Source: a virus
Direction: 5' to 3' (one strand)
IMG/VR virus record: IMGVR_UViG_3300035670_000639
Span: 1-37,639 of that record
Length of the DNA: 37,639 nt
In this document: piece after piece, positions 6,603-37,639 of the stretch
How the letters are laid out: each line of letters begins with the position of its first letter
Position numbering within the stretch: position 1 is the first letter of the stretch
The notes under the pieces: generated by a model
Told to the model about the DNA's origin: nothing
The model's database searches: none
The model's input: only the letters and a program-made list of their open reading frames with translations
Translations under genes and position numbers: made by a program

Positions 6603-6898
6603 CAGGACTTGAGTTTACGCTCAGCAAAACCTCCTTTGAAGTCGCTATGCTGGGCAATCTCTCCGTCTTCGTCGAGTGTGCGTATCATCTCCTCGAGCTT
6701 CTGGCGCTCCTGAAGCAGCTCGCGGCAATCCACCACGCTCTGCTTGATGGACGACAGCTCCGCCTTGCGAGCAGCCCCAACGATGTCGGGGTCTACTGGC
6801 TTCTTTATCTCTTCAATGAGGCCACTGATGGCCACCTCCATAGATTCAAGCAGCTTTCGTGCTGCGTCAACTGTGGTGAACTTACTCTTGATAGCCAT
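6602..6898 (-). CDS. Small coiled-coil protein, candidate small terminase subunit
   Basis: 98 residues from the ATG at 6898 (start MAIKSKFTTVDAARKLL). A TTG four codons earlier is possible but lies further inside the upstream gene, with which it already overlaps by 17 bases. The protein is almost entirely helical, with two amphipathic helices (about 10-30 and 45-75, KQSVVDCRELLQERQKLEEM). No DNA-binding motif is recognisable. Its place immediately before terL, with a TGATG overlap, makes the small terminase subunit the leading guess, by position only. Confidence 0.6.
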   Translation of the reverse strand: MAIKSKFTTVDAARKLLESMEVAISGLIEEIKKPVDPDIVGAARKAELSSIKQSVVDCRELLQERQKLEEMIRTLDEDGEIAQHSDFKGGFAERKLKS

Positions 6899-7463
6899 CG
6901 ACAATAGCAATTAGGTGGCTTACATTCATACGCCATAGCTTCTTGCCTTCAATCTCCATCTCGTAATCTGCGTCTTTGGCGAAGTAGACAATATCTCCCC
7001 TTTTAACGCCAAGCTCCTCAAGTGCTGGTGAGTCGCAGTAGATGCGTCCGTATCTGTTAGGCTGTTTCTCGTACTGGACAATCTCAAGGATAGAGCTCTT
7101 TAGCTCGTTGGGCTGTTTTACGGGCTCTACAAGAATCCAGTCAGTGAGAACCTGAAGGCCATCGTCACTCTTATAGGCGTAGCACTGGGTGGAGAACCCG
7201 CCGTCTGGGTGGAACTTCACCTTATAGTTGCCATCACCCATACTGTTTCCCTCATCCATAATGACGTGGTGGTGGACATAAAGGGTATCGCCAGCTTTAA
7301 CGCCAGTTTTATACTTCAAAGGAGTAGACACTACGGTTCCGTAGGGGACACGATGCTCAAACTCGTTGAACTTCGTCTCGATGTATATCTCTACATCGCC
7401 TATCTTTTTGGTGTCTTGTACTCTTTTGGGGATATGTATTAGGAAGTGTTCTAGGTACTGCAT
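6882..7463 (-). CDS. GroES-like co-chaperonin with two tandem domains
   Basis: 193 residues. Residues 107-190 read as a full GroES fold: DWILVEPV at the start, GVKRGDIVYFAKDADY (152-167) at the dome strand, and SHLIAIVDG (182-190) at the end, each matching the corresponding GroES strand. Residues 6-103 look like a second, diverged copy: HFLIHIP, PYGTVVSTP (40-48) and GVKAGDTLYVHHHV (54-67). GroES itself is about 97 residues, so this looks like a duplication and fusion. Phage co-chaperonins such as T4 gp31 assist folding of the capsid protein with host GroEL. The location just upstream of the packaging genes fits such a late role. Known: the family. Inferred: the duplication and the partner. 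Confidence 0.75.
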   Translation of the reverse strand: MQYLEHFLIHIPKRVQDTKKIGDVEIYIETKFNEFEHRVPYGTVVSTPLKYKTGVKAGDTLYVHHHVIMDEGNSMGDGNYKVKFHPDGGFSTQCYAYKSDDGLQVLTDWILVEPVKQPNELKSSILEIVQYEKQPNRYGRIYCDSPALEELGVKRGDIVYFAKDADYEMEIEGKKLWRMNVSHLIAIVDGYQE

Positions 7464-11477: not shown

Positions 11478-11553
11478 AAGTTGTCTACGTTTTGTTTTGT
11501 AAAGATAGGAAAGAAGCTGTTTCTCTTTCTTAAGGGAAAAATATTAACAATGC

Positions 11554-11584
11554 TTGCAAATGTCAAAAATATCGTGTAACTTTA
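11554..11584 (+). promoter_or_regulatory. Candidate promoter for the 11.6 kb RNA
   Basis: CTTG at -33 (TTG 11554-11556), a 20-base gap, then TAACTTTA (11577-11584), 7 of 8 to TAnnTTTG. The predicted start would be about 11590, just before the paired RNA structure. Confidence 0.4.
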
Positions 11585-11600
11585 CGGTCGTAACGTCACT

Positions 11601-11690
11601 ACGGGCAGAACATCCTCAACATATACTGCCTAAAGGGGGCCCCCACAAGGCCCCCCAAAGAGGCAGCCAGAACAATCTTTTGCCCTCCAG
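11601..11690 (+). ncRNA. Structured RNA candidate, copy A
   Basis: Three nested helices: P1 603-610/678-685 (GGGCAGAA with TTTTGCCC, one G-U), P2 626-631/661-666 (CTGCCT with AGGCAG), and P3 635-641/649-655 (GGGGGCC with GGCCCCC) closed by a 7-base loop CCCACAA (numbers plus 11,000). A second copy with the same architecture and compensating base changes lies at 18609-18690. No open frame covers it convincingly. The strand is assumed from the promoter-like sequence upstream and from copy B, which lies in a plus-strand leader. Confidence 0.5.
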
Positions 11691-11693
11691 CAG

Positions 11694-11727
11694 GCTCGGA
11701 CTTGCCAACGTCCCTTCGGGTCCGAGC
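11694..11727. other. Hairpin after RNA copy A
   Basis: Perfect 8-base stem GCTCGGAC (11694-11701) with GTCCGAGC (11720-11727) and an 18-base loop. There is no U-tract after it, so it is not a normal terminator. It may be a further helix of the RNA. Confidence 0.45.
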
Positions 11728-11757
11728 AGTCGACCTAACAATGACAAGACGTGAGAC

Positions 11758-11808
11758 ACGGGCAAGAACTGTAAAGTCATTTTACACCATTCTCAACATA
11801 CTGCCTCT
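11758..11808 (+). repeat. Degenerate partial repeat of the 5' half of RNA copy A
   Basis: ACGGGCA-AGAAC followed by CATTCTCAACATACTGCCT resembles ACGGGCAGAAC and CATCCTCAACATATACTGCCT at 11601-11631, with about 20 extra bases between the two blocks. The G-rich P3 helix is not repeated. A shorter pair, CAGCATCTTA, occurs at about 11815 and 11846. Confidence 0.5.
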
Positions 11809-12087
11809 CATTTCCAGCATCTTACAACCAACAAAGAAGGGTAACAGCATCTTATCCTAGCAAAATTTGCCTGCGTTCTGTTGTATAACAACTAAAGCTG
11901 TCACTCACCTAGTGTGGACTCGTTTGAAAAGAGAGTTCTATTTAGAGTGGGGAGAATATATACTTAAAAACGATTGGCTTAGCAAACCGAAACGAAATCC
12001 AGAACCCATCCCCCTTACGCACGTACCCATAGTTAGAATAAATCCAGCGTTTTGCTACTACCTACAGCCGTAGACCCATAGGAACTA

Positions 12088-12290
12088 CCTATCAGATACA
12101 GACATATTCCCCAAGTATCTATCTATTAGCGATAGGGAAAACCTATCAGAAGTCGCTGATGTAATTGCTAACTACCTGAGAATCAGGGGGAACAATAACC
12201 CCTCTAATATCCCCAATAGTCAACTCCTATCAACCACTACCTTCCCAAGGCTTCATTCTCGCGAGGCCATAGGCTTTGGCTATCAGGCAA
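12088..12290. repeat. Iteron-like CCTATCA repeats
   Basis: CCTATCAGA at 12088-12096 and 12142-12150, CCTATCAA at 12226-12233 and GCTATCAGG at 12279-12287. Inverted GATAGG-like units are at about 12131 and 12289. Spacing is irregular (54, 84 and 53 bases). Confidence 0.4.
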
Positions 12291-12406
12291 TAGGTAAAAA
12301 CTATCGATGTTGCGAATCGTTTTCGGCGAGGTTATATTACGCGCTGGGGTGATGTGCGGGTTATGTGCAGGTGACGCTACCGTGTGTCTGCGGACGCGTG
12401 CGCACG

Positions 12407-12480
12407 ATAGTCAATAGTAATTCTAAACAAAATATAGTTGTTTCTCAACTATATTTTTTAAGAATTATTCTATTGACTAT
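12407..12480. other. Near-perfect 74-base hairpin
   Basis: Three collinear stems: ATAGTCAATAG (12407-12417) with CTATTGACTAT (12470-12480); TAATTCT (12418-12424) with AGAATTA (12461-12467); AAAATATAGTTG (12429-12440) with CAACTATATTTT (12446-12457). The loop is TTTCT. The inner stem followed by T-runs on either strand could act as a bidirectional terminator, insulating early from upstream transcription. A cruciform at an origin is the alternative. Confidence 0.7.
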
Positions 12481-12505
12481 TTCCTACGAGGAAGCCCTAT
12501 CTTTG
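12473..12505 (+). promoter_or_regulatory. Promoter of the first early gene
   Basis: TTG at 12473-12475, a 22-base gap (slightly long), then TATCTTTG at 12498-12505, a full match to TAnnTTTG. The predicted leader to the ATG at 12535 is about 25 bases. The -33 element lies inside the right arm of the large hairpin. Confidence 0.55.
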
Positions 12506-12819: not shown

Positions 12820-12897
12820 TCCAAGGTAACTAAAGGTGTTGGTACAGCCTTAAATGTACTTAATTGTTTATTTTTTTTCTTGTAATTCCTAATTGTT

Positions 12898-14097
12898 ATG
12901 GAAAATCGTGTTGTTCTTTCTTGTGGTACTGAGGTTGATGCTTCTGAGGCTATTGAGATTACGTCTGGCTTTCATAAAGGTGAGTTCTTTCACGTTGATG
13001 ATGCTATTGAGATTACCTATGGTTACCTACGAGGTAATATAGTACCTAAGGATGATACTATCTATACTTATGATGATGAGGTAGTTATGTCTGATGATGC
13101 TATCTATTGTGAATCAGATGGTGAGTATTATGCTGATTCTTCTGACTTAGCCTACGTTAGTTATGGCTTTTATAGCGATAAGTATTACCATATGGATGAA
13201 GTAGTTTATTGTGTCTCTGATGATGAATACTACCATACTGACTCTATTGGTCACTATATCTACCTACATAGTGATGGTGAGTATCGTGACTATGAAGAAG
13301 AAAATCTGTACTGCCACGATTACCATTGTGGTGACCGATACGACCTGACTACTTCAGATACTCAGTTTACTATTGGCTTCGAGGTTGAGAAAGAAGACCT
13401 TAATGTACTTCAGCGTTGGGACTTGTCTGACGTAGATGATACTAAGTGGGTACGAGAAACAGATTCGTCGCTTGACGATGACTCTGGCTTTGAGTTAGTT
13501 AGCCCTACCTACGACCTTATGACCGATAACCTTGACAAAGATGTTGCAACAGATATTTTGTCGGCCCACCTTAATGCTTCGCATTCTTCTCGGTGTGGTG
13601 GTCATATCAACTTCGGAATCAAGGGCTTAAATGGTTCTGAGGTTTATGAGAAAGTGCAGGGCTTTGTACCTGTATTGCTGTCTCTATACCAACAGAGACT
13701 ACGTAGTCGTTACTGCTCACCTAAGAAAGAGTATAAGTACGGCGATGGTAAGTTCTCTGCTGTCCACGTTAAGAGTGGGTACATTGAGTTCCGTGTTCCT
13801 TCTGCTGTCCTTTCTGCTACCAACTTGCTATGGCGTAGAGATTTGCTACGTATAATGGCTAAGAATGTAGATAAGGGTACTCTGTTCTTTATCCGTGAGA
13901 TGCTTACTCCTACGAGTGAGTTACACAAGCACTTGCTCAAAGTTGTAGATGCGCCTACGATTAACCGCCGTGCCGCCTTTGCCGCAGCACTTGGTGAGGC
14001 TATGACAGGCCGTGACTATGCTAAGTGGGTGTCCTACGAGGGCTTCGCTGAGGCTAAGGAATCGCTGAAGGCTACTGCCGAAGGTCTTATTGCATAA
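12898..14097 (+). CDS. Amidoligase (Amidoligase_2 / COOH-NH2 ligase family), copy 1
   Basis: 399 residues. The C-terminal half has the signature motifs of the glutamine-synthetase-like amidoligase family: IGFEVEKED (159-167), ETDSSLD (187-193), FELVSPTYD (198-206), CGGHINFG (233-240) and IEFRVPSAV (296-304). These acidic residues and the His are expected to bind Mg-ATP. The N-terminal 150 residues are a very acidic, Tyr-rich repeat with units such as VVYCVSDDEYYHTDS, a likely binding surface. The family joins a carboxylate to an amine using ATP; the substrate is unknown. The neighbours are a class II glutamine amidotransferase and a second amidoligase. The gene ends inside a strong terminator, so it may be expressed separately from the rest. 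Start: ATG after CTAATTGTT, a leader motif it shares with the amidotransferase gene. Confidence 0.82.
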   Translation: MENRVVLSCGTEVDASEAIEITSGFHKGEFFHVDDAIEITYGYLRGNIVPKDDTIYTYDDEVVMSDDAIYCESDGEYYADSSDLAYVSYGFYSDKYYHMDEVVYCVSDDEYYHTDSIGHYIYLHSDGEYRDYEEENLYCHDYHCGDRYDLTTSDTQFTIGFEVEKEDLNVLQRWDLSDVDDTKWVRETDSSLDDDSGFELVSPTYDLMTDNLDKDVATDILSAHLNASHSSRCGGHINFGIKGLNGSEVYEKVQGFVPVLLSLYQQRLRSRYCSPKKEYKYGDGKFSAVHVKSGYIEFRVPSAVLSATNLLWRRDLLRIMAKNVDKGTLFFIREMLTPTSELHKHLLKVVDAPTINRRAAFAAALGEAMTGRDYAKWVSYEGFAEAKESLKATAEGLIA

Positions 14098-14107
14098 GAC
14101 CTTTTTT
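14081..14107 (+). terminator. Intrinsic terminator at the end of amidoligase 1
   Basis: Stem AAGGTCTTAT (14081-14090) with ATAAGACCTT (14094-14103), loop TGC, then a T-run to 14107. The stem includes the last sense codons and the TAA stop (14095-14097), so a ribosome at the stop would open it. Confidence 0.8.
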
Positions 14108-14116
14108 CTGAAAAAT

Positions 14117-14150
14117 AGGGTTTGCTTGCAAGCCCTCCTTGACAAACCCT
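14117..14150 (+). other. Second hairpin downstream of amidoligase 1
   Basis: AGGGTTTG (14117-14124) pairs with CAAACCCT (14143-14150). The loop contains the self-complementary GCTTGCAAGC. Only a weak T-rich tail (TTTATATTG) follows. It could be a backup terminator or a leader structure of the 29-residue gene. Confidence 0.4.
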
Positions 14151-14163
14151 TTATATTGTATAT

Positions 14164-14253
14164 ATGCGTGAAGCAAATTTCTCCCTTGAGGTAGTCGGCG
14201 TTGTTGCTACTATCTGTCTATTTGTGATGGCGATTGTCGCCATTGCTTACTAA
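14164..14253 (+). CDS. 29-residue single-pass membrane peptide
   Basis: Reads MREANFSLEVVGVVATIC then LFVMAIVAIAY. About 20 consecutive hydrophobic residues form one membrane helix, after a short polar N-terminus. It lies between the amidoligase 1 terminator and the amidotransferase, and its stop overlaps the leader repeats of the next gene. It could be a holin-like or regulatory peptide, or a partner or substrate of the amide-forming enzymes; none of these is shown by sequence. Being short, it may also be chance. Confidence 0.4.
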   Translation: MREANFSLEVVGVVATICLFVMAIVAIAY

Positions 14254-14292
14254 TTGTTTAACCCTAATTGTTTAATTCTAAATCTAATTGTT
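14252..14292 (+). repeat. Triple CTAATTGTT leader repeat
   Basis: Three copies of CTAATTGTT within 41 bases directly before the amidotransferase ATG; the last abuts the ATG. The same nonamer abuts the ATG of amidoligase 1 at 12898, and TTCTATTGTTT precedes amidoligase 2. It may be a translation-initiation element or operator. Confidence 0.5.
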
Positions 14293-15177
14293 ATGTGTAT
14301 TGCTATCTTAAATAAATCTTCTCAACTATCTCGTAAGACCCTCAAGAATTGCTGGGACTCTAACGATGATGGTGCTGGCTTTATGTACGTCAAGGACAAG
14401 ACCTTGCAAATGTTTCATCAGCCTAACCTATCCCCTGAGGACTTCAACAGCCTCTACCTTGCGTATTGTACTGCCTACAAGCAACGCGACAAGGATACCC
14501 CTATTGTATTGCACTTCCGTATTGCTACTCACGGCTTGACTCCTGAGTTCTTGCATCCCTTTGCGGTATCTGATACTTTGGGCTTTGTCCACAACGGCAT
14601 CCTACACGGAATGGGTACACACGAATACTCAGACACTGCGGAACTACGTGACCTACTTGCTGACCTGCCTAAGGTGATGACTAAAAGTGTGGCGGGGTTG
14701 CTCAATCCTCGGCTTATGTTTGCTATGCTTCAGCACTTTATCGGCAAGGGCAACAAACTAATCTTCCTCGATAACCTTGGTGACTTCGAGATTGTCAACG
14801 AGGCGGCGGGTTCTTGGGACAATGGTAATTGGTTCAGCAACAACTCCTACAAAGAGCGTGGTGTACGCTACTACGGCTCCTACGCTGTCCGTGACTACGG
14901 CAAGGGTGTAGGCTCTGCGTATGGTGAGAAGGATGCTAAGTACTATGCTGACTTTGATTGGGATACGCTTGAGGAAAAGGAATGGAATGCGTCCTTTGGC
15001 ACTGCGTTGCTTCCTGAATCTACGCAAGCGTTTGACTCTGCGTTGGTGGAACAGACCTACCACTGCTCTACGTGCAAGGCTGAGACTGCGGTCAACGCCT
15101 TCTCTGAGTGCCTTGAGTGTGGTGAGTACAACATTAAGGCTGAGAGTGATGTGATTGCTCGTCTGTATATGGACTAA
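14293..15177 (+). CDS. Class II glutamine amidotransferase (Ntn hydrolase) with C-terminal zinc ribbon
   Basis: 294 residues. The start is set by the catalytic Cys, which must be residue 2: MCIAIL at 14293; an upstream in-frame ATG at 14254 would bury it. Further family motifs are HFRIATHG (74-81), FVHNGILHG (98-106, the oxyanion and glutamine-binding segment) and SDTAEL (113-118). Residues 258-276 carry C-x2-C and C-x2-C, a probable zinc ribbon. The family releases ammonia from glutamine, or rearranges gamma-glutamyl amides, and passes it to a partner. Lying between two amidoligases, it may supply ammonia or a glutamyl group to them. The order amidoligase, GATase II, amidoligase argues for one pathway. 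Confidence 0.82.
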   Translation: MCIAILNKSSQLSRKTLKNCWDSNDDGAGFMYVKDKTLQMFHQPNLSPEDFNSLYLAYCTAYKQRDKDTPIVLHFRIATHGLTPEFLHPFAVSDTLGFVHNGILHGMGTHEYSDTAELRDLLADLPKVMTKSVAGLLNPRLMFAMLQHFIGKGNKLIFLDNLGDFEIVNEAAGSWDNGNWFSNNSYKERGVRYYGSYAVRDYGKGVGSAYGEKDAKYYADFDWDTLEEKEWNASFGTALLPESTQAFDSALVEQTYHCSTCKAETAVNAFSECLECGEYNIKAESDVIARLYMD

Positions 15178-15225
15178 GTTATTATCTATTAGTTTATTGT
15201 TTGTTTTAATTTAATTCTATTGTTT

Positions 15226-16725
15226 ATGTCTATTAATGTTCTTGTTAAGCCTTGGGCTAATCGTTCAACTGATTGTGTTGGTGTCAATATGCTTGAGCCA
15301 CACTACTCACGATACAATGAACTACTTAACGGCTATCTGTCAGTCGTTGAGCAGGGAAATGTTGAGGTTGATGTGTTCGCCCCTCTGTTCTCTATGTTTA
15401 AATATGGCGCTAACCGAGAGATGGTTAATATGGTCAGCGATAACTTCCTTGACTTCGGCTACAGACGCGGATGTGTCTACGGCAGCAACGTCACACCCAA
15501 TGGTGGGCGTATGTCTATCGGTGAGTACTCGTGGTCGGGTCGTGACCTTATGACTCCGTGGAATATGTTGGCTGAGGAATTCGGTGGGCCTGTGGTATTT
15601 TGGTTCGGCAAGGTAGATGGCGCTTGGTATGGTATCCGCCACGACTCGCCGCGTGAGACTTGGCAGGCTGTCAACGAGGCTATTGCTGATATTGGTGAGG
15701 CTATGCTAAGTGCCAGCGCAAGGCTTGATGCACTCACCACGTGGACGAGTAACAGCCTACGCTTGTCTGGTGTGTGCATTGACCGCAACCCAGAAAGTTC
15801 GGTGGCCGCCATTGAGACTGATATTCTTTTATCTGAACTTGCCGCTGAGATTGCTCGTCAGCAAATGATTGAGGACTCTGCTTCTTCTGTAGATGACTGG
15901 CACGGAGGTGTACGTGGTAACCGCACCCGACCTTCCTACGCAACTAAGTCAACGGAATTTACCATTGGCTTCGAGGTAGAGAAAGAGGATGATGATGTGA
16001 AGCATAGCATCAACCACGTTAAGTTCCGTAAGGCTACAGGTTGGGACAAGGAACGCGACGGCTCCCTTAACGAGTATGGCTATGAGATTGTGTCTCCTAC
16101 GTACGACCTGTACGACAACCGCTTCGATGAGGACTTACACAACGATATACTTCGAGAGCATATCAACGCCGACTATTCTCGCCGATGTGGTGGGCACATC
16201 CACTTAGGTGCTGTAGGTATGCGTGGCACTACGTTCTTCGACCGCATTGCTCCGTGGCTACCGCTTATCTACGCTATATATGTGGGGCGCATCAATGGCG
16301 AACACTGCAAGGTCAAGAAGAACGACAGCATCAAGTACTCGTCTGATAAGTATCAGTCTGTCCGCTTGTTCGATGACCACATTGAACTACGCATCCCAAG
16401 TGCTGTGTCAGACGTAGAGAATCTGTTGTGGCGTCGTGACCTACTGCGCATTATCTGCGACAACCTTGATGCTACTCCCCTACGTATTGTGGGTATGCTT
16501 ACCGACAAGCGTAGCAAGTTGCACAAGCATATGAGCAAGGTCTACAACGAGGCGCGTATGTTGGAGAAGTTCCGACTCTATGTGTACTTCGCCAATGAGT
16601 TGCTTGATGATGCGTACACTACTATCCCCGAGCGTATCCCACAATGGGAGAATCTGTTCAACAAGTCACAGATTTCTCACCTACGTAACGAGGGCTTCCG
16701 TCAAAAATCTAACGTAATAATCTAA
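15226..16725 (+). CDS. Amidoligase (Amidoligase_2 family), copy 2 with a long N-terminal domain
   Basis: 499 residues from ATG 15226 (a TTG at 15220 would add two). The amidoligase domain spans about 240-460: IGFEVEKED (247-255), ERDGSL (276-281), YEIVSPTYD (286-294), CGGHIHLG (321-328) and IELRIPSAV (386-394). These match copy 1 closely, and LLWRRDLLRI is identical in both, so they are paralogues. The first 235 residues differ completely from the acidic repeat of copy 1: a soluble alpha/beta segment with WSGRDLMTPWNMLAEEFGGP and a helical linker. The unlike N-termini suggest different targets for the same chemistry. It is preceded by a leader like that of the other two cassette genes. Confidence 0.82.
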   Translation: MSINVLVKPWANRSTDCVGVNMLEPHYSRYNELLNGYLSVVEQGNVEVDVFAPLFSMFKYGANREMVNMVSDNFLDFGYRRGCVYGSNVTPNGGRMSIGEYSWSGRDLMTPWNMLAEEFGGPVVFWFGKVDGAWYGIRHDSPRETWQAVNEAIADIGEAMLSASARLDALTTWTSNSLRLSGVCIDRNPESSVAAIETDILLSELAAEIARQQMIEDSASSVDDWHGGVRGNRTRPSYATKSTEFTIGFEVEKEDDDVKHSINHVKFRKATGWDKERDGSLNEYGYEIVSPTYDLYDNRFDEDLHNDILREHINADYSRRCGGHIHLGAVGMRGTTFFDRIAPWLPLIYAIYVGRINGEHCKVKKNDSIKYSSDKYQSVRLFDDHIELRIPSAVSDVENLLWRRDLLRIICDNLDATPLRIVGMLTDKRSKLHKHMSKVYNEARMLEKFRLYVYFANELLDDAYTTIPERIPQWENLFNKSQISHLRNEGFRQKSNVII

Positions 16726-17128: not shown

Positions 17129-17719
17129 ATGCCTAACTGGTGTTACAATGTGCTTACTGCAAGGGGCACTAAAGAGGAGATTGACTCCTTCCTTGCTAAG
17201 ACTACTAAGCCCAATCAGTCAACAGACTTTGCTGATATGGAGCCACTTGTGTTTGACTTCAACAGCATCATACCTATGCCTAACAATGTGTTCCGAGGTA
17301 ATATCGGACAGAAGGAACAGGAGGAGTGCCGTGCTCAAGGCATACCCAACTGGTACGACTGGTCTATCGGTCACTGGGGCACTAAGTGGAATGCCTGCTA
17401 CACTTCGGTGATACGTGATGCTGATGATAAGGTATCTATATCGTTCTCTACTGCGTGGTCGTATCCCCTACCTGTAATGAACGAGATGATAGATATGTAT
17501 CCAAACATTGACTTCGACATTACTTCACACGAGGAGTCTGATGCCTTCGTCCTACAGCATACTCGTGAGGGTATAGAGGAGGGAGAGAATCGCTACTACG
17601 CTGACGGTAAGGTAGTTGAGTACAACGATGAAAAAGATAAATGGATTGATGCCGATGGCAATGAGTACGATGAGTACGATGAGTCTGGCTATTGGTTCCC
17701 TTCTGATGATATGTTCTAA
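17129..17719 (+). CDS. Api92-like / DUF1281 ferredoxin-fold protein
   Basis: 196 residues. The opening MPNWCYNVLTARG, then FNSIIPMPN and NWYDWSIGHWGTKWNA, matches the DUF1281/YubB/Api92-like family found on plasmids and phages; its members have a ferredoxin-like fold and unknown function. After the core the C-terminus is acidic, with a DEYDEYDESGYW tail. It is in the same orientation and close behind the amidoligase genes. Confidence 0.75.
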   Translation: MPNWCYNVLTARGTKEEIDSFLAKTTKPNQSTDFADMEPLVFDFNSIIPMPNNVFRGNIGQKEQEECRAQGIPNWYDWSIGHWGTKWNACYTSVIRDADDKVSISFSTAWSYPLPVMNEMIDMYPNIDFDITSHEESDAFVLQHTREGIEEGENRYYADGKVVEYNDEKDKWIDADGNEYDEYDESGYWFPSDDMF

Positions 17720-30175: not shown

Positions 30176-30203
30176 GTCTCTAAAAGAATACTATAAAGAA
30201 TGA
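29991..30203 (+). CDS. Small helical protein overlapping the rusA tail (70 aa)
   Basis: Starts MTKSQLSRQYHLAAEGVHKA and continues as a long amphipathic helix (EKELVEKKLQRFQACLREEL). Ordinary composition, so this frame looks more like a selected protein than the RusA tail in the other frame. It overlaps rusA by 185 bases and hands over to the glycosyltransferase by ATGA. Confidence 0.6.
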   Translation: MTKSQLSRQYHLAAEGVHKAMTELYEQLHDHQGNPLVEKELVEKKLQRFQACLREELNGIRESLKEYYKE

Positions 30204-31162
30204 TTACAATTGTCCACATTGATGGGCTTGGTGGCGTTAACTACCACCGCCTTATCGTACCATTGCGCAGACTCCAGTCACAAGGTGTAAACCTACACTG
30301 GATTCAGTCGCTCAACGAGCTGAAAGACATCAACTTAGACTTGGTTGACAACCTAATCGTATCGCGTAAGGTATCTGTCAATAACCACAAGGAGTTCAGC
30401 CGTATGCTCAAGAAGCACGGAGTGAAGCTCATCCTTGACAACGACGACTACTGGGTGCTTAACCCAGAGAACCCAGCGCGTCAGATGTACGAGGTTTACT
30501 ATGGGCCAGACATCAAGAAGACCATCAAAATTGCTGATGTCATTTGGACTCCATCTACGTATCTCGCTAAGATGATGGCTGACGTAAACCCTAAAGCAAT
30601 CATTGAATTCGTAAACAATGCAATCGACACCACTGAACAGCAATGGACCGAACAAACCAAGTCACGAAATTCTGTGGTTAGGTTTGGCTACGTTGGCGCT
30701 CTGGCTCATATTAATGACATTAAGACCATAGGATACGACTTCTCTAAAGTCTACACCTTTGGAGTAGAGGGTATGGAGTACGACGACATATTCAAGTACA
30801 ACAAAACACTACCCCCTGCCGACATCTGGAACTACGCCAAGTTCTATAAGCACTTCGATGTTAGCCTTGTACCCTTAGTGGCGAACAGATTCAACTGGAG
30901 CAAGAGCGACCTGAAGATAACCGAAGCCGCCGTGACTAAGACGGCAGTTATCGCCGCCAACACGAAGCCATACAGCAAGACCATCATCCACGGAGAGACA
31001 GGACTTCTTGCTTCCGACCAAAAGGAATGGGCCGAGGCCATCGAGATGATGGACAAAAATCTAGCAAAGAAGTTAGGACGAAACCTGTTTGAACACCTAA
31101 AGGATTCTCCAGACCACAACCTTGACTTGGTAAACCAAAAAAGACTTAAATACATTTCATAA
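30200..31162 (+). CDS. Glycosyltransferase, GT4-like
   Basis: 320 residues. Two Rossmann halves: the N-terminal half begins MITIVHIDGLGGVNYHRL, with the GGVNYHR loop for acceptor binding, and the C-terminal half shows RFGYVGALAHINDI and then SDLKITEAAVTKTAVIAANT, the donor-binding E-x7-E-like region. It probably transfers a nucleotide-sugar residue. It starts by ATGA and leads by TAATG into the DUF3431 gene, in the same operon as UDP-galactopyranose mutase. Confidence 0.82.
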   Translation: MITIVHIDGLGGVNYHRLIVPLRRLQSQGVNLHWIQSLNELKDINLDLVDNLIVSRKVSVNNHKEFSRMLKKHGVKLILDNDDYWVLNPENPARQMYEVYYGPDIKKTIKIADVIWTPSTYLAKMMADVNPKAIIEFVNNAIDTTEQQWTEQTKSRNSVVRFGYVGALAHINDIKTIGYDFSKVYTFGVEGMEYDDIFKYNKTLPPADIWNYAKFYKHFDVSLVPLVANRFNWSKSDLKITEAAVTKTAVIAANTKPYSKTIIHGETGLLASDQKEWAEAIEMMDKNLAKKLGRNLFEHLKDSPDHNLDLVNQKRLKYIS

Positions 31163-31725
31163 TGGACGTAGTTATTGCATCCTACAAAGAAGACTTGTCG
31201 TACGTGAAGCGTATAAGCGCCAACACAATCGTATACGACAAGGGCGATAGGGGTATTGGTATTCAATTGCCAAACGTAGGGAGAGAGGCGCAAACCTATG
31301 CATATCATATTGTAAAGAATTACAAGTCGTTGCCAGAATGGACAGCATTTATTCAGGGCAACCCATTTGACCACGCCCCACACGTTCTGTCTCTGATTAA
31401 CGACTTCGACAGAATCTCCGAATCAAGCAAGAATGAGAAGTTCTACTTTGTGGGCAACTCTATTGTTCGGTGCGACATCAATGGACTCCCTCATCACGCA
31501 GGACTTGACTTAGCTGGATTCCAAATTGCGCTGTTTGGCACCATCGTGCAGATGGATATGATGTTTGTTGCTGGCGCTCAGTTCATCGTGCACCGCGACC
31601 TTATCAAGAATAAGAAGCTGTCCTTCTGGAAGAGTGTATTGCGGGTGCTTGAAAGCGACAAGTATCCCGATGGACCGTGGTGCGCAGAGCGTATGTGGAC
31701 ATACATCTTCAACTACCACAAGTAA
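31162..31725 (+). CDS. DUF3431 protein, glycosyltransferase-like
   Basis: 187 residues. Typical DUF3431 features: VVIASYKEDLSYV at the start, TIVYDKG, QLPNVGREAQTYAYHIVKNY and FIQGNPFDHAPH. The family is found in sugar-transfer loci of bacteria and fungi and is thought to be glycosyltransferase-like. TAATG at both ends couples it to its neighbours, so the three genes are surely made together. Confidence 0.8.
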   Translation: MDVVIASYKEDLSYVKRISANTIVYDKGDRGIGIQLPNVGREAQTYAYHIVKNYKSLPEWTAFIQGNPFDHAPHVLSLINDFDRISESSKNEKFYFVGNSIVRCDINGLPHHAGLDLAGFQIALFGTIVQMDMMFVAGAQFIVHRDLIKNKKLSFWKSVLRVLESDKYPDGPWCAERMWTYIFNYHK

Positions 31726-32804
31726 TGTACGATTTTCTGATTGTTGGCGCAGGTCTCTACGGAAGCATCTGCGCTAGAGAGTTGACCGACAAGGGCTACA
31801 AATGTCTTGTCATCGACAAGCGACCGCACATCGGAGGGAACTGTTACACCTCCAAGCAGAAGGGCATAGATGTACACGTATATGGGCCACATATCTTTCA
31901 CACATCAAACGAGGAGGTATGGAACTACATCAACAGATTCGCTACATTTCATCAGTATAAGTTCAGCCCCGTAGCCAACTACTTGGGAAACATATACTCG
32001 CTCCCCTTCAACCTTTGGACGTTCCAGCAGATATACGGAGTAAGCAGTCCATACGAGGTAGAAGAAAAACTCAAGGAGATGAAGAAGTTTGATGAGCCGC
32101 AGAACCTTGAGGAGGTAGCCATCAACTCCATCGGGTGGCTGATGTACCAAAAGTTGGTATACGGATACACCAAGAAGCAATGGATGCGTGAGCCCAGCGA
32201 ACTGCCTGCTGAAATTATCAAGCGTCTTCCTGTTCGCCTAACCTTTGACAACAACTACTTCAACGATAAGTATCAAGGCATTCCTGTTGGTGGATACACT
32301 GGGATATTCGAACAGCTTTTAGATGGAGTCGAGGTGCAACTTGGTGTTGAATTCAATGATTTGTCTGGCGACATATTCGCCAAGAACATCATATACACTG
32401 GTAAGATTGATGAGCTGTTCAACTACGTCTATGGAGACCTAGAATACCGTAGTCTTAGGTTCGAACAGAAGACCCACAAGAAGGAGAACTACCAAGGGAC
32501 GGCAGTGATAAACTTCACCGATGACGTGACCAAGTTTACACGCTCAATAGAGCACCGTCACTTTGACCGAGACGTAGAGTCTGAGTACACCATAGTAACC
32601 AAGGAGTATCCATCTGAATACTTCCGTGGAGCTGAGCCATACTATCCTATTGAAACGAAGACCAACAGAATCAAATACATCCAGTACAAAGCACTGGCTG
32701 ATGCGTGGAAAGGTCTACACTTGGGGGGTAGACTTGCTGAATACAAGTACTACGATATGCATCAAGTGATAGAAAAGGCGCTTAACTTCTGTAAGGGCTT
32801 TTAG
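31725..32804 (+). CDS. glf: UDP-galactopyranose mutase
   Basis: 359 residues, near the family's usual 365-390. FAD-binding motif LIVGAGLYGS (5-14), KRPHIGGNCYT (32-42), YGPHIFHTSNEEVW (53-66, with the His-loop), GYTKKQW (147-153) and TYHRH-equivalent region EHRHFDRD (276-283). The enzyme interconverts UDP-galactopyranose and UDP-galactofuranose using reduced FAD. With the two transferase genes before it, it implies that the phage adds galactofuranose, or a related sugar, to a surface polymer or virion component. Start ATG by TAATG coupling. The stop overlaps the convergent gene by 4 bases. Confidence 0.92.
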   Translation: MYDFLIVGAGLYGSICARELTDKGYKCLVIDKRPHIGGNCYTSKQKGIDVHVYGPHIFHTSNEEVWNYINRFATFHQYKFSPVANYLGNIYSLPFNLWTFQQIYGVSSPYEVEEKLKEMKKFDEPQNLEEVAINSIGWLMYQKLVYGYTKKQWMREPSELPAEIIKRLPVRLTFDNNYFNDKYQGIPVGGYTGIFEQLLDGVEVQLGVEFNDLSGDIFAKNIIYTGKIDELFNYVYGDLEYRSLRFEQKTHKKENYQGTAVINFTDDVTKFTRSIEHRHFDRDVESEYTIVTKEYPSEYFRGAEPYYPIETKTNRIKYIQYKALADAWKGLHLGGRLAEYKYYDMHQVIEKALNFCKGF

Positions 32805-32938: not shown

Positions 32939-33375
32939 CTTGTTGCGAATCTTGTAGCCAAGATAAATAATAAAATCACAATAAGAGACAATAGCAAGAC
33001 ATTTTTCGCCTTGTCTACCCAAGTCTTTGGGGTCGGAAGATACTCAACCACAGGCACTTTCACCTCAACATCTCTTACGATGTTATAGGGCTTCACCTTA
33101 GTCTTTACAATTATTCTGTCCTCGTACTTGATAAGTGTTGTAACAACTGTATCGTTGCTCACCACTACGCTGTCAACTCCAGAAAAAGAAACTGTATCCG
33201 CATACACAATCTCTTTGGTTACAACAGTATCCGTTTTTACTATCACTCTTTCTTTTAGCAATGATGGATTCAATCGCGTTGCGCGGTTGAGATGCCACGT
33301 CGCCCGCTTGTTGGCTGAGCAGCCCGATAAAAGGATGCTCATCAATAATGCCAGTGCAACAAATTTCTTCATCAT
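32926..33375 (-). CDS. Unimolecular spanin (u-spanin) candidate
   Basis: 149 residues. N-terminal lipoprotein signal with lipobox LLSGC (C19), so the mature end should be in the outer membrane. The centre is a series of beta strands rich in Val/Thr/Asp (VIVKTDTVV, VVVSNDTVV). A single membrane helix lies near the C-terminus (about 124-142, NVLLLSLIVILLFILATRF) with a basic end for the inner membrane. One protein tethered in both membranes is the definition of a u-spanin, which fuses the membranes after endolysin action. The two Met codons at the start are equivalent choices. It overlaps the LPD38 gene (ATGATGA). Confidence 0.8.
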   Translation of the reverse strand: MMKKFVALALLMSILLSGCSANKRATWHLNRATRLNPSLLKERVIVKTDTVVTKEIVYADTVSFSGVDSVVVSNDTVVTTLIKYEDRIIVKTKVKPYNIVRDVEVKVPVVEYLPTPKTWVDKAKNVLLLSLIVILLFILATRFATRWLR

Positions 33376-36300
33376 TGTTTTTGTGTGTATAGTTTTCGGA
33401 TGACAGCATAGAACTCTTCGTTAGGGCGGAATCCAGTCTCACGTAGGTCCTTCATTACGTCGTTAAACTCCTCAGGTTCAAGCTTTCCGAACTTATCGTA
33501 GAACACTCGTGCGGCTTCGCTCGGCGTGTCTGCAAATCTAATGCTCATCAGGCTCTTGTCCTTGTCGCTAGAGGCGATTGCGTAGAAGTATTTACGACCA
33601 ATACGCTCTCTCTTTTCGGCTGGTAGACCAGACAGAATCTTATTTAGCTCCTCCTGATATTGCTTGCCGTTCTTCTCAAAGCGACCCTGCTCCTTGTGCT
33701 TCTTAGCAAGAGCTTTAATCTTCTCGCTGGCAAGATAATCTTCAGTAGATTCCTCAAGTTTAATCTCCTGTTGTGAACCTGCACGCTTAACGTAGTCAGG
33801 CCAGTTAGGATTCACCGAGCGAACAAACACCTTGGTGGCATTGCTCTTGATGTTCTTGAGCTCTCTCGTAGCGCGTCCCTCAACAGACTCCTGAAGCTGC
33901 TTGTCGGACAGGTCTACGTCTTCTACGTTGAGTGCATCAGTTGTTGCTCTGGCAGCCAAGTCAAGAACGCCATACGCTACGCCAACGAGGAAGTTGGTGG
34001 TCGGGCTGGTGATGATTGATTCTACGCCAGCCTTCAAGCGAGGAGCTGAAATATCTGGGATAAACTCAGACTCAGAAGCCTTAGCAAGCGCCTTGTAGAA
34101 GTACTCTACACGGTCACTACTGCGCCCCTCTGCGTACGGCTCTACCTGTCCGAAGATATATTCTGGAACAATGGTAGCATTGCGGAATGAGTCGTAGTTA
34201 AAGAACGACTTGGCAATCACAGACATCACTGGGACTCTGTTCATAAGGTCGTAGGCCTTGTCAACCCCAGGAACAAAGAAAGGAACACCATCAGCAGCAT
34301 TTTCCCAAGCGAGCTTAATCTCCTCGTCTGAGAACTTCTTAGGCTTGCCGTTTATCGTAGAGGCCCAAGACTGAGCCAGCATTTCGATGGGCACAGTAAG
34401 CGGTAGAAGCTGTTGTGGTTTCTTCAAGCGGATGTATTGACGCTTTCCGTCCTCGTCCTTTGTGGGAAGGAGGATGATGTGGTAGCGGTAGCGCATATAC
34501 GGGTCTACATCCTCGTAGTCATCGTCTCCGTAGGTTAGGATGTTATAGAACACAAGCCCCATAAGGCCAGCGGCATATTGGAAGAACTTCTCAGCAAATG
34601 CTTTCGGGTTGTCCTTGATTCCATTAAACGTAGCCGCAGTAGCTTGGAACGCTACGTTTAGGTAAGGAGCGATAGCATCAAGGTCTTTGGTAAGCGTACC
34701 ACCCTTACTGAAGTCTACGATGGAACGAGCCTCAGCAGCAGCCATAAACTTAATCTTCTCAAGCCCATCTTTGGTCTTAGCCAAGTCAGGATACTGCTGC
34801 TTGAGATTAGAAATCATACGACTGTAAACAGCTAGGCGGATACCAATCTCAAAGGTTTCACCCGTGAAGGCAATTCCCTTAGCAACCTTATCCCAGCGCT
34901 TAGCAAGAGCGTACTCGAGGCTGTTCTTGTACTTCTCCTTGAAGCGGTACTCTGGGCGGAACTCCTGACTCATAAATGACATACCTCCTCCGTGGGCAAA
35001 GTAGTCACGAACAAGTTCTTGGTCTGTAGCTTTGGAATAGATACCGACAGCATAGTCCTTAGCCATCTTCAAGATTGCAACAGGAAGGAAGCTGTCCTTC
35101 CCATACACCTTGTTTCTAGCCATAACGATAGCCAGAGATTCAGGAACTACCAGACCAAACCCGAAGAATACGTTGTATCCAGTTGCGAAGGCACGAAGAA
35201 CAGGGGCTCCAGAAAGAGCCGACAGAATCTTCTTAGCGCGGCCACCGACACCAAAGAAGCTTCGGTTAGCGTCCTGCCACTGAACATACATATCATTGCG
35301 TAGCTGGAATGCACGAAGCTTTCCGTTCTCTTTGTAGAATACGTTGGTGAATCCTTTATCAGCAGGGTCAACTTTGTTGTTGCCGTATTGGTCGGTAGCA
35401 ATGCTTCCGTCAAACAACGTAGCGTAGTTAGCCTTGCGAAGGAAGTCAGCGCTATCTGGAGAAATCTCTTTAGCGAGCTCCCTGTTGGCGATGTTCTCAA
35501 AGCGCTTAGCCTCTTGAGACTTATAGGCAAGAGACAACAGCATACGAGAGTCCATAAGAAGGTTGCCTTCGCTACCCTCTTCGATAGACTTGAGTACGTC
35601 TTGCTTAAGACCCATACCAGAACGCTCAAACACCTCATCGTCAAGAGCCTCAAAGATTTTCTCTACGAACTTGCGAGGCTCGTAGTCGTCCTTAACGAAT
35701 CTGTCAAACGTCTGCTTGTCGATAAGGCCATTCTGCTCGTAGGTTCTCAAGATGTTTCTGAACTCATTGAAGTAAGCATCAGCACGCATATTGAGCTTTC
35801 CAAACATCGTAGCTCCAAGCTTTCGCTCCATTGCGGTAATGGCTTGGATAGCCTCTTCAGCGTTGAGACCTTTCGGGTGCTGGGGGCGAACAGCATAATC
35901 ATCAGCGTACTCCTTGAGCTTTTCACGCTGCTGACGGATGTTCATCTTGTCGTTCTCAAGCTCACTAATAAACTTATTGTCAGGCTTGGACTTGGCCTTT
36001 TCTGACTTGATGAGCTCATCAATGGCCTTGATGTCAACGACCATCTTCGCATCGAAGTTGTTGAGATTCTGTTCCGCCAATGCTTTGCGCTCATCCCAAT
36101 TGGAATCAATCTGGATGACGCGACGCATAAAGATGATTTGGTCAAGAGCCTCAATATCACCACGAGAAAGGTCTCTATAGATTTGCTTCTCTGCTCGGTT
36201 GAACAAGTCTGTTGCGTTCGCCTGAGCACCAGCACGAAGCGTCATAAGATTCTCGGCATAGTCCATTCCGCCATCAATCATAGCCTCGCGGATGTCTGCC

Positions 36301-37639
36301 TGACGGTCGAGCCACGCCTTCTTTGAGAAGATACTAGTCTTCTTCTCGTTGAACAACTTCATACGCTCCGCATACTCCTTGTCCGAATCGTAGGAAGCCT
36401 TAGCCACCTTATCCAGTGCAGCATCTTCTGCGTTTTCCTCGATAGGAGACAGCTTGATGCGCTTAGAGAACTGAACAGCCGAGCGGGTAAACTGCGTAGG
36501 CGCGTTCAGGTTCATAAAGATTTTTGGAATGGGTATGATTTCTCCATTCATACTATGAGCTTGGAACAACTTAGCGTACTGCTCTACGTAATCAATAGGG
36601 TCAAGATTAAGGCGCTTTGAGTTTTTGCGAATCTGTGCTTCGTCAAGAATGACTCTAGCGTTTAATCTTTCTAATGTTTCTTGAAGAAGATTGACCTTCT
36701 CCGTCTCTGATAGGTTGTCAAATCCTGCTTGAGAAAGAGAATTCATAAGCTGGTCATACTTTTCAGACGGAAAAGCATACAGTACTCCAAGCTTATCAAC
36801 GTATTCAAAATCACTAAGAAGAACTTCGTTATCCTTATTGACCTTAAGAGAGAATAGCTGTCCAACCTTGCGGATGTAGGCTTGGTTATTTAGTTGAATA
36901 CGGCGGTAATTGCTTACCTCTTTATCGTGCTTGTGCTCCTTAGCCAAAAGGTCATTAGCTTCTTTAGCAACCTTTTCGTCTTTAGACTTTGACAGCTTAG
37001 TTAACTTGTCGATGTATTCCTTGTATAGACCGATGTTATCATCCTTACTGTCGGAAACCGCAGTGAAATCAACCCCAGCATACTCAATATCTGGGAACAT
37101 CGTAGGAATAGTGTTTACGATTCTGCTGAATATCTCAGATGTTCCAGACGACAGGAATGGAGGTATGTTGTTGTATCCAAATACTTTAGAGTCATAGGCT
37201 ACCCCAATGATTCTAGTATTAGGATTGTAGGTGAGATTTATAGTGTACTTATCCTGAAGCTCCTTACCCTTGTAGTCTTTTTTGATTACGTCAAGACCAC
37301 GATAAAGCGTGGGTACTTTCCAAGTATAGTCAAATGACGACGTTCTAGTATACAGGTCTCTAGAGGCTATGCCCTGACCCATAGTAGAAATAGCTAAGCG
37401 AAGGTCATCAATGGATACAACTCCTTCTTTGTCAATCTTGTCGTATATGCTTTTTACACTTCTGTCTTTATCTGAGGCCTTTTCGTTGTATTGGATTAGG
37501 CTGTTTAAAGTATCCTTGATGTAGGACCTTAACTCAGGCCCAGGCTCTGAAAACTCAGAAAGCATAATTCTGTATCCAGCCTCTCCACTAGTTGAAACCG
37601 CAGGCTTATACAAGTAAGCTGTAAATGAAACTCCAATGT
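33372..37639 (-). CDS. Giant virion protein with LPD38-like domain (5' end cut by window edge)
   Basis: 1,421 residues are visible and the frame runs off the right edge. The TTG at 37613 is not a believable start, since the frame continues upstream. The N-terminal third is mixed helical with charged coils. A C-terminal section (about 780-1000 of the visible part) resembles the large polyvalent protein domain LPD38: FATGYNVFFGFGLVVPESLA, FTGETFEIGIRLAVYSR, EARSIVDFSKGG and LNVAFQATAATF. Hydrophobic segments (GLMGLVFYNILTY) could pass a membrane. Such proteins are packaged in podovirus heads and may be injected with the DNA. The end overlaps the spanin gene by 4 bases, so late expression is expected. 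Confidence 0.75.
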   Translation of the reverse strand, partial: IGVSFTAYLYKPAVSTSGEAGYRIMLSEFSEPGPELRSYIKDTLNSLIQYNEKASDKDRSVKSIYDKIDKEGVVSIDDLRLAISTMGQGIASRDLYTRTSSFDYTWKVPTLYRGLDVIKKDYKGKELQDKYTINLTYNPNTRIIGVAYDSKVFGYNNIPPFLSSGTSEIFSRIVNTIPTMFPDIEYAGVDFTAVSDSKDDNIGLYKEYIDKLTKLSKSKDEKVAKEANDLLAKEHKHDKEVSNYRRIQLNNQAYIRKVGQLFSLKVNKDNEVLLSDFEYVDKLGVLYAFPSEKYDQLMNSLSQAGFDNLSETEKVNLLQETLERLNARVILDEAQIRKNSKRLNLDPIDYVEQYAKLFQAHSMNGEIIPIPKIFMNLNAPTQFTRSAVQFSKRIKLSPIEENAEDAALDKVAKASYDSDKEYAERMKLFNEKKTSIFSKKAWLDRQADIREAMIDGGMDYAENLMTLRAGAQANATDLFNRAEKQIYRDLSRGDIEALDQIIFMRRVIQIDSNWDERKALAEQNLNNFDAKMVVDIKAIDELIKSEKAKSKPDNKFISELENDKMNIRQQREKLKEYADDYAVRPQHPKGLNAEEAIQAITAMERKLGATMFGKLNMRADAYFNEFRNILRTYEQNGLIDKQTFDRFVKDDYEPRKFVEKIFEALDDEVFERSGMGLKQDVLKSIEEGSEGNLLMDSRMLLSLAYKSQEAKRFENIANRELAKEISPDSADFLRKANYATLFDGSIATDQYGNNKVDPADKGFTNVFYKENGKLRAFQLRNDMYVQWQDANRSFFGVGGRAKKILSALSGAPVLRAFATGYNVFFGFGLVVPESLAIVMARNKVYGKDSFLPVAILKMAKDYAVGIYSKATDQELVRDYFAHGGGMSFMSQEFRPEYRFKEKYKNSLEYALAKRWDKVAKGIAFTGETFEIGIRLAVYSRMISNLKQQYPDLAKTKDGLEKIKFMAAAEARSIVDFSKGGTLTKDLDAIAPYLNVAFQATAATFNGIKDNPKAFAEKFFQYAAGLMGLVFYNILTYGDDDYEDVDPYMRYRYHIILLPTKDEDGKRQYIRLKKPQQLLPLTVPIEMLAQSWASTINGKPKKFSDEEIKLAWENAADGVPFFVPGVDKAYDLMNRVPVMSVIAKSFFNYDSFRNATIVPEYIFGQVEPYAEGRSSDRVEYFYKALAKASESEFIPDISAPRLKAGVESIITSPTTNFLVGVAYGVLDLAARATTDALNVEDVDLSDKQLQESVEGRATRELKNIKSNATKVFVRSVNPNWPDYVKRAGSQQEIKLEESTEDYLASEKIKALAKKHKEQGRFEKNGKQYQEELNKILSGLPAEKRERIGRKYFYAIASSDKDKSLMSIRFADTPSEAARVFYDKFGKLEPEEFNDVMKDLRETGFRPNEEFYAVIRKLYTQKQ

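Follow-up and report, generated by a model that had tools for sequence, protein, structure and literature searches.

A viral DNA of 37,639 bases, i.e., IMG/VR virus record IMGVR_UViG_3300035670_000639 and here described in its entirety as the window, carries two paralogous amidoligases to either side of a single glutamine amidotransferase. That these three proteins together form amide bonds on some acceptor, as the original prediction had proposed, is the reading that is best supported, i.e., by folds, by residues, and by gene linkage. The cassette, that is, probably represents a module that forms amides in the cytosol at the expense of glutamine and ATP, the biochemistry of which we infer. 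The genes are as follows, with AL and GAT standing for amidoligase and glutamine amidotransferase, respectively:

12898..14097, + strand: AL1, 399 amino acids, with residues 1-147 acidic and tyrosine-rich and a core at about residues 150-350
14293..15177, + strand: GAT, 294 amino acids, with a Met-Cys start, Cys2 as presumptive nucleophile, and a catalytic part at residues 1-195
15064..15120, + strand: C-terminal CxxC...CxxC of GAT (C258, C261, C273, C276), resembling a zinc ribbon
15226..16725, + strand: AL2, 499 amino acids, with a variable N-terminal region (residues 1-235) and a core (residues 240-440)

AL1 and AL2 are amidoligases of the glutamine synthetase (GS) fold, AL2 as seen from a structural model in combination with structure matching and AL1 as seen from its paralogy to AL2. 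The two proteins share 41% identity over 217 residues (E 1e-50) and are paralogs. The AlphaFold model of AL2, built from a 41-row alignment, has a pLDDT (predicted local distance difference test) of above 90 over core residues 240-440. The best Foldseek matches to this core are GS, Dop (of the Pup pathway), gamma-glutamylmethylamide synthetase (GmaS), and YbdK, with E-values of 3.6e-4 and up, and against glutamine synthetases VIA-align returns a Z of about 10 over approximately 175 residues. Profile-profile comparison of the AL core with accepted phage amidoligases gives a probability of 96.7% (E 3.8e-10), and AL2 also matches the PHROG ‘amidoligase’ group (E 0.0013). Because AL2 reaches just 16.5 bits (E 0.0083) against Pfam Amidoligase_2 (PF12224), below the curated cut-off of 22 bits, and because AL1 gives no Pfam match, these proteins are filed as divergent relatives of that family rather than, by Pfam's rule, as members of it. 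The amidoligases of phages MEP402 (19.6) and MosMoris (19.3) are similarly below the cut-off, and that of ctgrD200 (30.7) is above. Searching NCBIfam provided no useful match, with a methyltransferase match of AL1 (17 bits versus a cut-off of 240) being noise.

Both amidoligases had been described as keeping all signature motifs, which is borne out. The set consisting of GxExE (as GFEVE), DxS, GxE, GGHxx, R, and ExR is complete as well as invariant in 41 sequences, and includes, by AL2 numbering, E250/E252, D278/S280, E287, H324, R355, and E387/R389. The key residues (D, S, G, E, H, R, E, R) are invariant also in a 16-sequence set. Collectively these residues are predicted to form the expected GS-type active site. 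N-terminal to the cores the picture is more mixed. The first 147 residues of AL1 indeed are acidic and tyrosine-rich (36 aspartates or glutamates, 21 tyrosines, isoelectric point of 4.1), and indeed are dissimilar to those of AL2, other than for a shared [YW]HxGxR that in most relatives directly precedes the core. The ‘alpha/beta domain’ that had been ascribed to AL2 is not established, however, as its N-terminal 235 residues are mixed helix and strand of low model confidence. Ratios of nonsynonymous to synonymous substitution (dN/dS) are 0.20-0.26 for AL1, 0.08 for the AL2 core, and 0.30 for the AL2 N-terminal region. As all three genes of the cassette are under purifying selection (dN/dS 0.08-0.33), this cassette appears to be more than a chance grouping.

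The GAT, as modeled (pLDDT 80.7), is a class II, i.e., N-terminal nucleophile (Ntn), glutamine amidotransferase, for which Cys2 would serve as nucleophile following Met removal. Its match to Pfam GATase_6 is weak (E 0.021), and its profile match to GlmS chains has an E-value of 4.5e-5. Structurally, the best agreement of its first 190 or so residues is with the glutaminase domain of GlmS (Z 13.6), with EgtC (13.3), and with PurF (12.2), well in excess of that with other proteins of the Ntn fold, i.e., proteasome subunits, at about 6. Invariant in 40 relatives are Met1-Cys2, H74-R76, T79, G81, H88-P89, H100-N101-G102, and D114, with motifs HFRxxTxG, HP, HNG, and SDT kept, so that retention of Cys2 and of glutamine-binding motifs, also as previously claimed, stands. 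The four C-terminal cysteines are invariant in seven close relatives and less so further out. A longer GAT reading frame, starting from a TTG at 14254, is less likely than the Met-Cys start at 14293. In class II amidotransferases the Cys2 nucleophile has to be the exposed N-terminus. As Cys2 must become a free N-terminus, the GAT cannot bear a leader peptide, and the chemistry therefore should be cytosolic. The 41% identity, GS fold, and Ntn fold together confirm two paralogous amidoligases around a class II amidotransferase. Placement of the proteins in unrelated families, set beforehand as refuting, was not seen; instead they fall within the GS-fold amidoligase and class II amidotransferase superfamilies.

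Linkage between these genes was assessed using two independent scans of IMG/VR, one with a GAT profile and one with an AL profile. Contigs so obtained are designated here with L numbers. Within the GAT-scan contigs, an AL is found directly upstream and on the same strand in 78 of 80, the other two being cut by the contig end, with a median gap of 26.5 nucleotides. Within the AL-scan contigs, a GAT is present in 70 of 78. Seven more are cut by the contig end, and the last, L142, is no true exception since it starts within its AL2 gene, where no downstream GAT is expected. These GATs comprise 61 clusters at 70% identity, and therefore the linkage is not a matter of one phage counted repeatedly. 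Pairing of AL with GAT is near-obligate and of fixed order. Genes that never occur together, the other outcome set beforehand as refuting, thus were not seen, as amidoligase and GAT are adjacent on one strand in all evaluable contigs. GAT and AL profiles were run also against 84,980 genomes of bacteria and archaea, in scans which depend on short conserved peptides, and no relatives were found. Judged from those scans, the close branch to which the window's cassette belongs would not be chromosomal, and is apparently virus-specific.

The AL-GAT-AL order is seen in nine cassettes, those of the window and of L003, L006, L007, L032, L033, L035, L038, and L039. First ligases of these cassettes form one clade (support 99/95), inside of which is found also a single-ligase row, L045, and second ligases form another (98/94). 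The two ligases therefore split before these phages did and have been kept side by side since. From the tree, that is, the AL1-GAT-AL2 triple is an ancient unit. L097 too possesses AL-GAT-AL, but with both ligases being sisters of each other, and this arrangement arose independently (a single origin has p 0.011 by the approximately unbiased test). In L038 (4420-9503) there is an AL-GAT-AL-GAT tandem, with the second GAT following AL2. That second GAT has a C-terminal stretch which by eye is like a degenerate gamma-glutamyl cyclotransferase (GGCT).

Phage clusters of amidoligase and glutamine amidotransferase (GATase) genes are widespread and have been described previously, that is, in LUZ24-like phages (PMC3890496, PMC3517423), in RIO-1-like phages, for which cell-wall modification is proposed (PMC5498523), and in OM43 phages, for which the wall proposal cites Iyer 2009 (PMC10580990). 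Phage PhiM6 is described as having a peptide-bond module that includes amidoligase and GATase (PMC6256558), and Planctomycetes phage ZRK32 as having genes for amidoligase, GATase, GGCT, and glutathione synthase, with nitrogen assimilation suggested (PMC10945688). Most such descriptions, as seen in these citing papers, rest on the prediction of Iyer et al. (2009). In agreement with what had been noted earlier for this DNA, a proven product for phage modules is not reported in the portions of the literature covered (PMC10580990, PMC5498523, PMC3890496). Predicted peptidoglycan modification cassettes (RIO-1/PSA-HP1, LUZ24/tf/PaP3/UFV-P2, PA11, phiEco32, PhiM6), as portrayed in the sections covered of PMC5498523, PMC3890496, and PMC6256558, likewise have amidoligase and GATase clustered. 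Those clusters, with the full RIO-1/LUZ24 type being a seven-gene cassette, additionally hold an ATP-grasp enzyme, a COOH-NH2 ligase, and often GGCT. The window differs from these in that two amidoligase paralogs surround one GAT, and in that its sequences are far diverged. GGCT was not found in the window, a probably incomplete record, and ATP-grasp gave no match there using a single seed. A COOH-NH2_lig search provided no signal even in controls and therefore is uninformative for the window.

In mycobacteriophages Marvin/MosMoris, OM43 phages MEP401/402, and Manatee Spring phages ctgrD200/ctfjg026, an amidoligase is directly upstream of a homologous GAT, as it is here, but with a single ligase per GAT, unlike in the window. 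It is with AL cores from this group that the profile-profile probability of 96.7% was obtained. The GAT of ctfjg026 furthermore is fused to GGCT. Among cellular enzymes, the GlmS glutaminase domain and EgtC share with GAT the class II Ntn fold and N-terminal cysteine. GlmS has its own synthase domain, unlike GAT, and EgtC hydrolyzes a gamma-glutamyl intermediate during the synthesis of ergothioneine. No homology to AL or GAT is seen for MurT, which is Mur-ligase-like, or for GatD, which is a class I amidotransferase. MurT/GatD nonetheless is analogous as a two-protein, glutamine-dependent system that amidates a carboxylate of a wall precursor, i.e., peptidoglycan D-Glu (PMC3267633). What is new here is a divergent and apparently virus-specific branch of the described phage module. 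New as well are the quantified near-obligate pairing, the two-ligase/one-glutaminase arrangement, which is ancient and has an independent parallel, and an embedded open reading frame (ORF) with a membrane helix:

14164..14253, + strand: 29-amino-acid ORF, MREANFSLEVVGVVATICLFVMAIVAIAY, located between AL1 and GAT and predicted to form a single membrane helix

Counterparts in L003, L006, and L007 have an identical position, are 29 amino acids long from an M-R/K-E start, and have a hydropathy of 2.9. This length and hydropathy are kept despite strong divergence of the ORF's sequence in L006 and L007. Such an ORF is held by 1.4% of shuffled AL1-GAT gaps. More distant cassettes (L032:4777-6000, L077:5185-5994) also have, between AL and GAT, small ORFs of 54 and 56 amino acids that contain hydrophobic stretches.

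Mechanistically, GAT Cys2 would hydrolyze glutamine, thereby supplying ammonia. Each amidoligase would employ ATP to activate an acceptor carboxylate as an acyl phosphate, which then would be attacked by ammonia to give an amide. One GAT would serve AL1 as well as AL2, with these ligases acting on two different carboxylates or instead in two successive steps on one molecule, and it is their dissimilar N-terminal regions that would select acceptors. As both ligases have long been conserved separately around one GAT, the suggestion is of a shared GAT and of separate acceptors or steps. The reading we favor overall, and by our estimate somewhat better than an even bet, is that glutaminase-derived ammonia feeds two ATP-dependent ligases which amidate two cytosolic carboxylates, perhaps those of envelope precursors.

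Certain observations weigh against that reading. In structural comparison, EgtC, which is a gamma-glutamyl-amide hydrolase, ranks level with the GlmS glutaminase domain, and therefore the GAT might do something other than donate ammonia. Many of the more distant relatives, about 20, have GGCT fused to their GAT, and some close single-ligase phages carry GGCT elsewhere as a separate gene, which hints at gamma-glutamyl chemistry over simple amidation. The membrane-helix ORF, lastly, is small as well as putative. From the first two of these points, along with a resemblance of the AL core to GmaS and YbdK that is about equal to its resemblance to GS, a different role can be constructed, one to which we assign a real though distinctly minor probability. 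The amidoligases might join a glutamate side-chain carboxylate to an amine, as do GmaS, GCS, and EgtA, with GAT later hydrolyzing the resulting bond, as does EgtC (Z 13.3, versus 13.6 for GlmS). With similar reserve, the cyclotransferase of relatives might do GAT's job, with the cassette then being a protect/deprotect or amine-handling pathway. Direct coupling of ligase to GAT in a fixed order, however, is more typical of ammonia transfer. In addition, GGCT is detectable in 0 of 12 two-ligase records (window included) versus 13 of 31 records with a single AL (Fisher p 0.008), a difference that is a lead only since these records are related and partly incomplete.

Returning to ammonia-fed amidation, a cytosolic or membrane-side envelope precursor, e.g., a peptidoglycan stem peptide, is the leading candidate as acceptor, if tentatively so. 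An envelope target is favored because of the membrane-helix ORF inside the cassette together with the wall proposal published, in the parts covered, for related modules (PMC5498523, PMC10580990). Modification of an envelope precursor would alter the wall of the infected cell, e.g., against superinfecting phages or lysins. The target could instead be a host or phage protein, a tRNA, or a DNA base, with the effect of, for example, blunting a host enzyme or shielding phage DNA, and the cassette does sit in a rightward region among small ORFs and recombination/replication genes. Related modules also occur in Mycobacterium, Methylophilales, and Stenotrophomonas phages, the walls of whose hosts differ, such that a common target is possible. 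Just 1 of 23 records, however, has a gene of the thymidylate synthase type, such genes often contributing to base hypermodification, and PADLOC provided no match to a known defense family, so that such targets are rather improbable. Least credible, and by a wide measure improbable, is auxiliary nitrogen metabolism, i.e., assistance to the host in assimilating nitrogen as suggested for Planctomycetes phage ZRK32, which is described as promoting growth with nitrate or ammonium (PMC10945688), for that paper, in the portions covered, argues from gene content with individual genes untested there, a glutaminase/ligase pair consumes ATP and glutamine with no nitrogen gain, and two diverged ligases are a poor fit.

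Upstream of and within the cassette are additional features:

12473..12505, + strand: Bacteroidota-type promoter-like element, TTG-N22-TATCTTTG, upstream of the cassette and found also before AL1 in L003, L006, L007, and L032
12535..12819, + strand: 94-amino-acid ORF between promoter and AL1, with no family match, which may be co-transcribed
12861..12897, + strand: leader of AL1, holding two TAATTGTT motifs of which the second directly adjoins the ATG
14251..14292, + strand: GAT leader, with three TAATTGTT motifs

The conserved Bacteroidota-type promoter and the 29-codon membrane-helix ORF are parts that had been overlooked in the original prediction. Scans for sigma-70 promoters and for terminators did no better than with shuffles, and the Bacteroidota -33/-7 pattern therefore was used. 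As TTG-N22-TATCTTTG by itself is common enough (7 occurrences in the window versus 2.3 expected), the case for a promoter rests on conserved surroundings, i.e., TTGACTATTTCC...CTTTG. Leader motifs had been said to be common to all three genes. This holds for AL1 and GAT, the leaders of which contain all five of the window's exact TAATTGTT sites, but not for AL2, the leader of which is T-rich with no exact copy. Just 5' of the promoter element is a perfect hairpin, AAAATATAGTTG/CAACTATATTTT, at 12429-12457. Approximately 1 kb without a clear gene (11480-12472), within which is a GGGGCCCC palindrome (11628-11651), separates leftward structural genes from the rightward cassette.

The window lacks end repeats. 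Its DNA has no similarity match among 50,697 phages, and AL1 protein has no match among those records. Assignment to a Bacteroidota host is reasonable given the large terminase, which shares 40-49% identity with the terminases of Flavobacterium elemo phages and spring phage ctfjg026 (49% for the latter). Close to the terminase gene, at 6882-7463 (- strand), is a GroES/Cpn10-like domain (Pfam E 5.6e-5), with groEL present in the related ctfjg026. Downstream of the cassette, at 17129-17719 (+ strand), is a DUF1281_C/Api92-like protein, to which a 198-amino-acid ORF between AL1 and GAT in L032 (4930-5526) is similar by eye. Genes for a glycosyltransferase (phrog_7162), a DUF3431 protein, and UDP-galactopyranose mutase Glf occur consecutively at 30200-32804 (+ strand), possibly as a glycan-decoration set, and adjoin a 1413-amino-acid tail-fibre-like ORF at 33372-37613 (- strand).

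At its most ambitious, and this we consider unlikely, AL1, the membrane peptide, GAT, and AL2 would constitute a self-contained, virus-specific, membrane-associated amidation machine, that is, one in which a single glutaminase and two ligases with different acceptors give rise to a product, of the envelope or otherwise, that is doubly modified and is made by no known cell. Wall remodeling by phage amidoligase/GATase modules was proposed in 2009, and the pairing is now seen to be near-obligate over 61 GAT clusters. As the set is compact, i.e., three enzymes and a peptide, it should be expressible and assayable, which makes the question of what such modules produce directly testable. The two-ligase cassette, moreover, has a comparison built in: AL1 alone, AL2 alone, and both.

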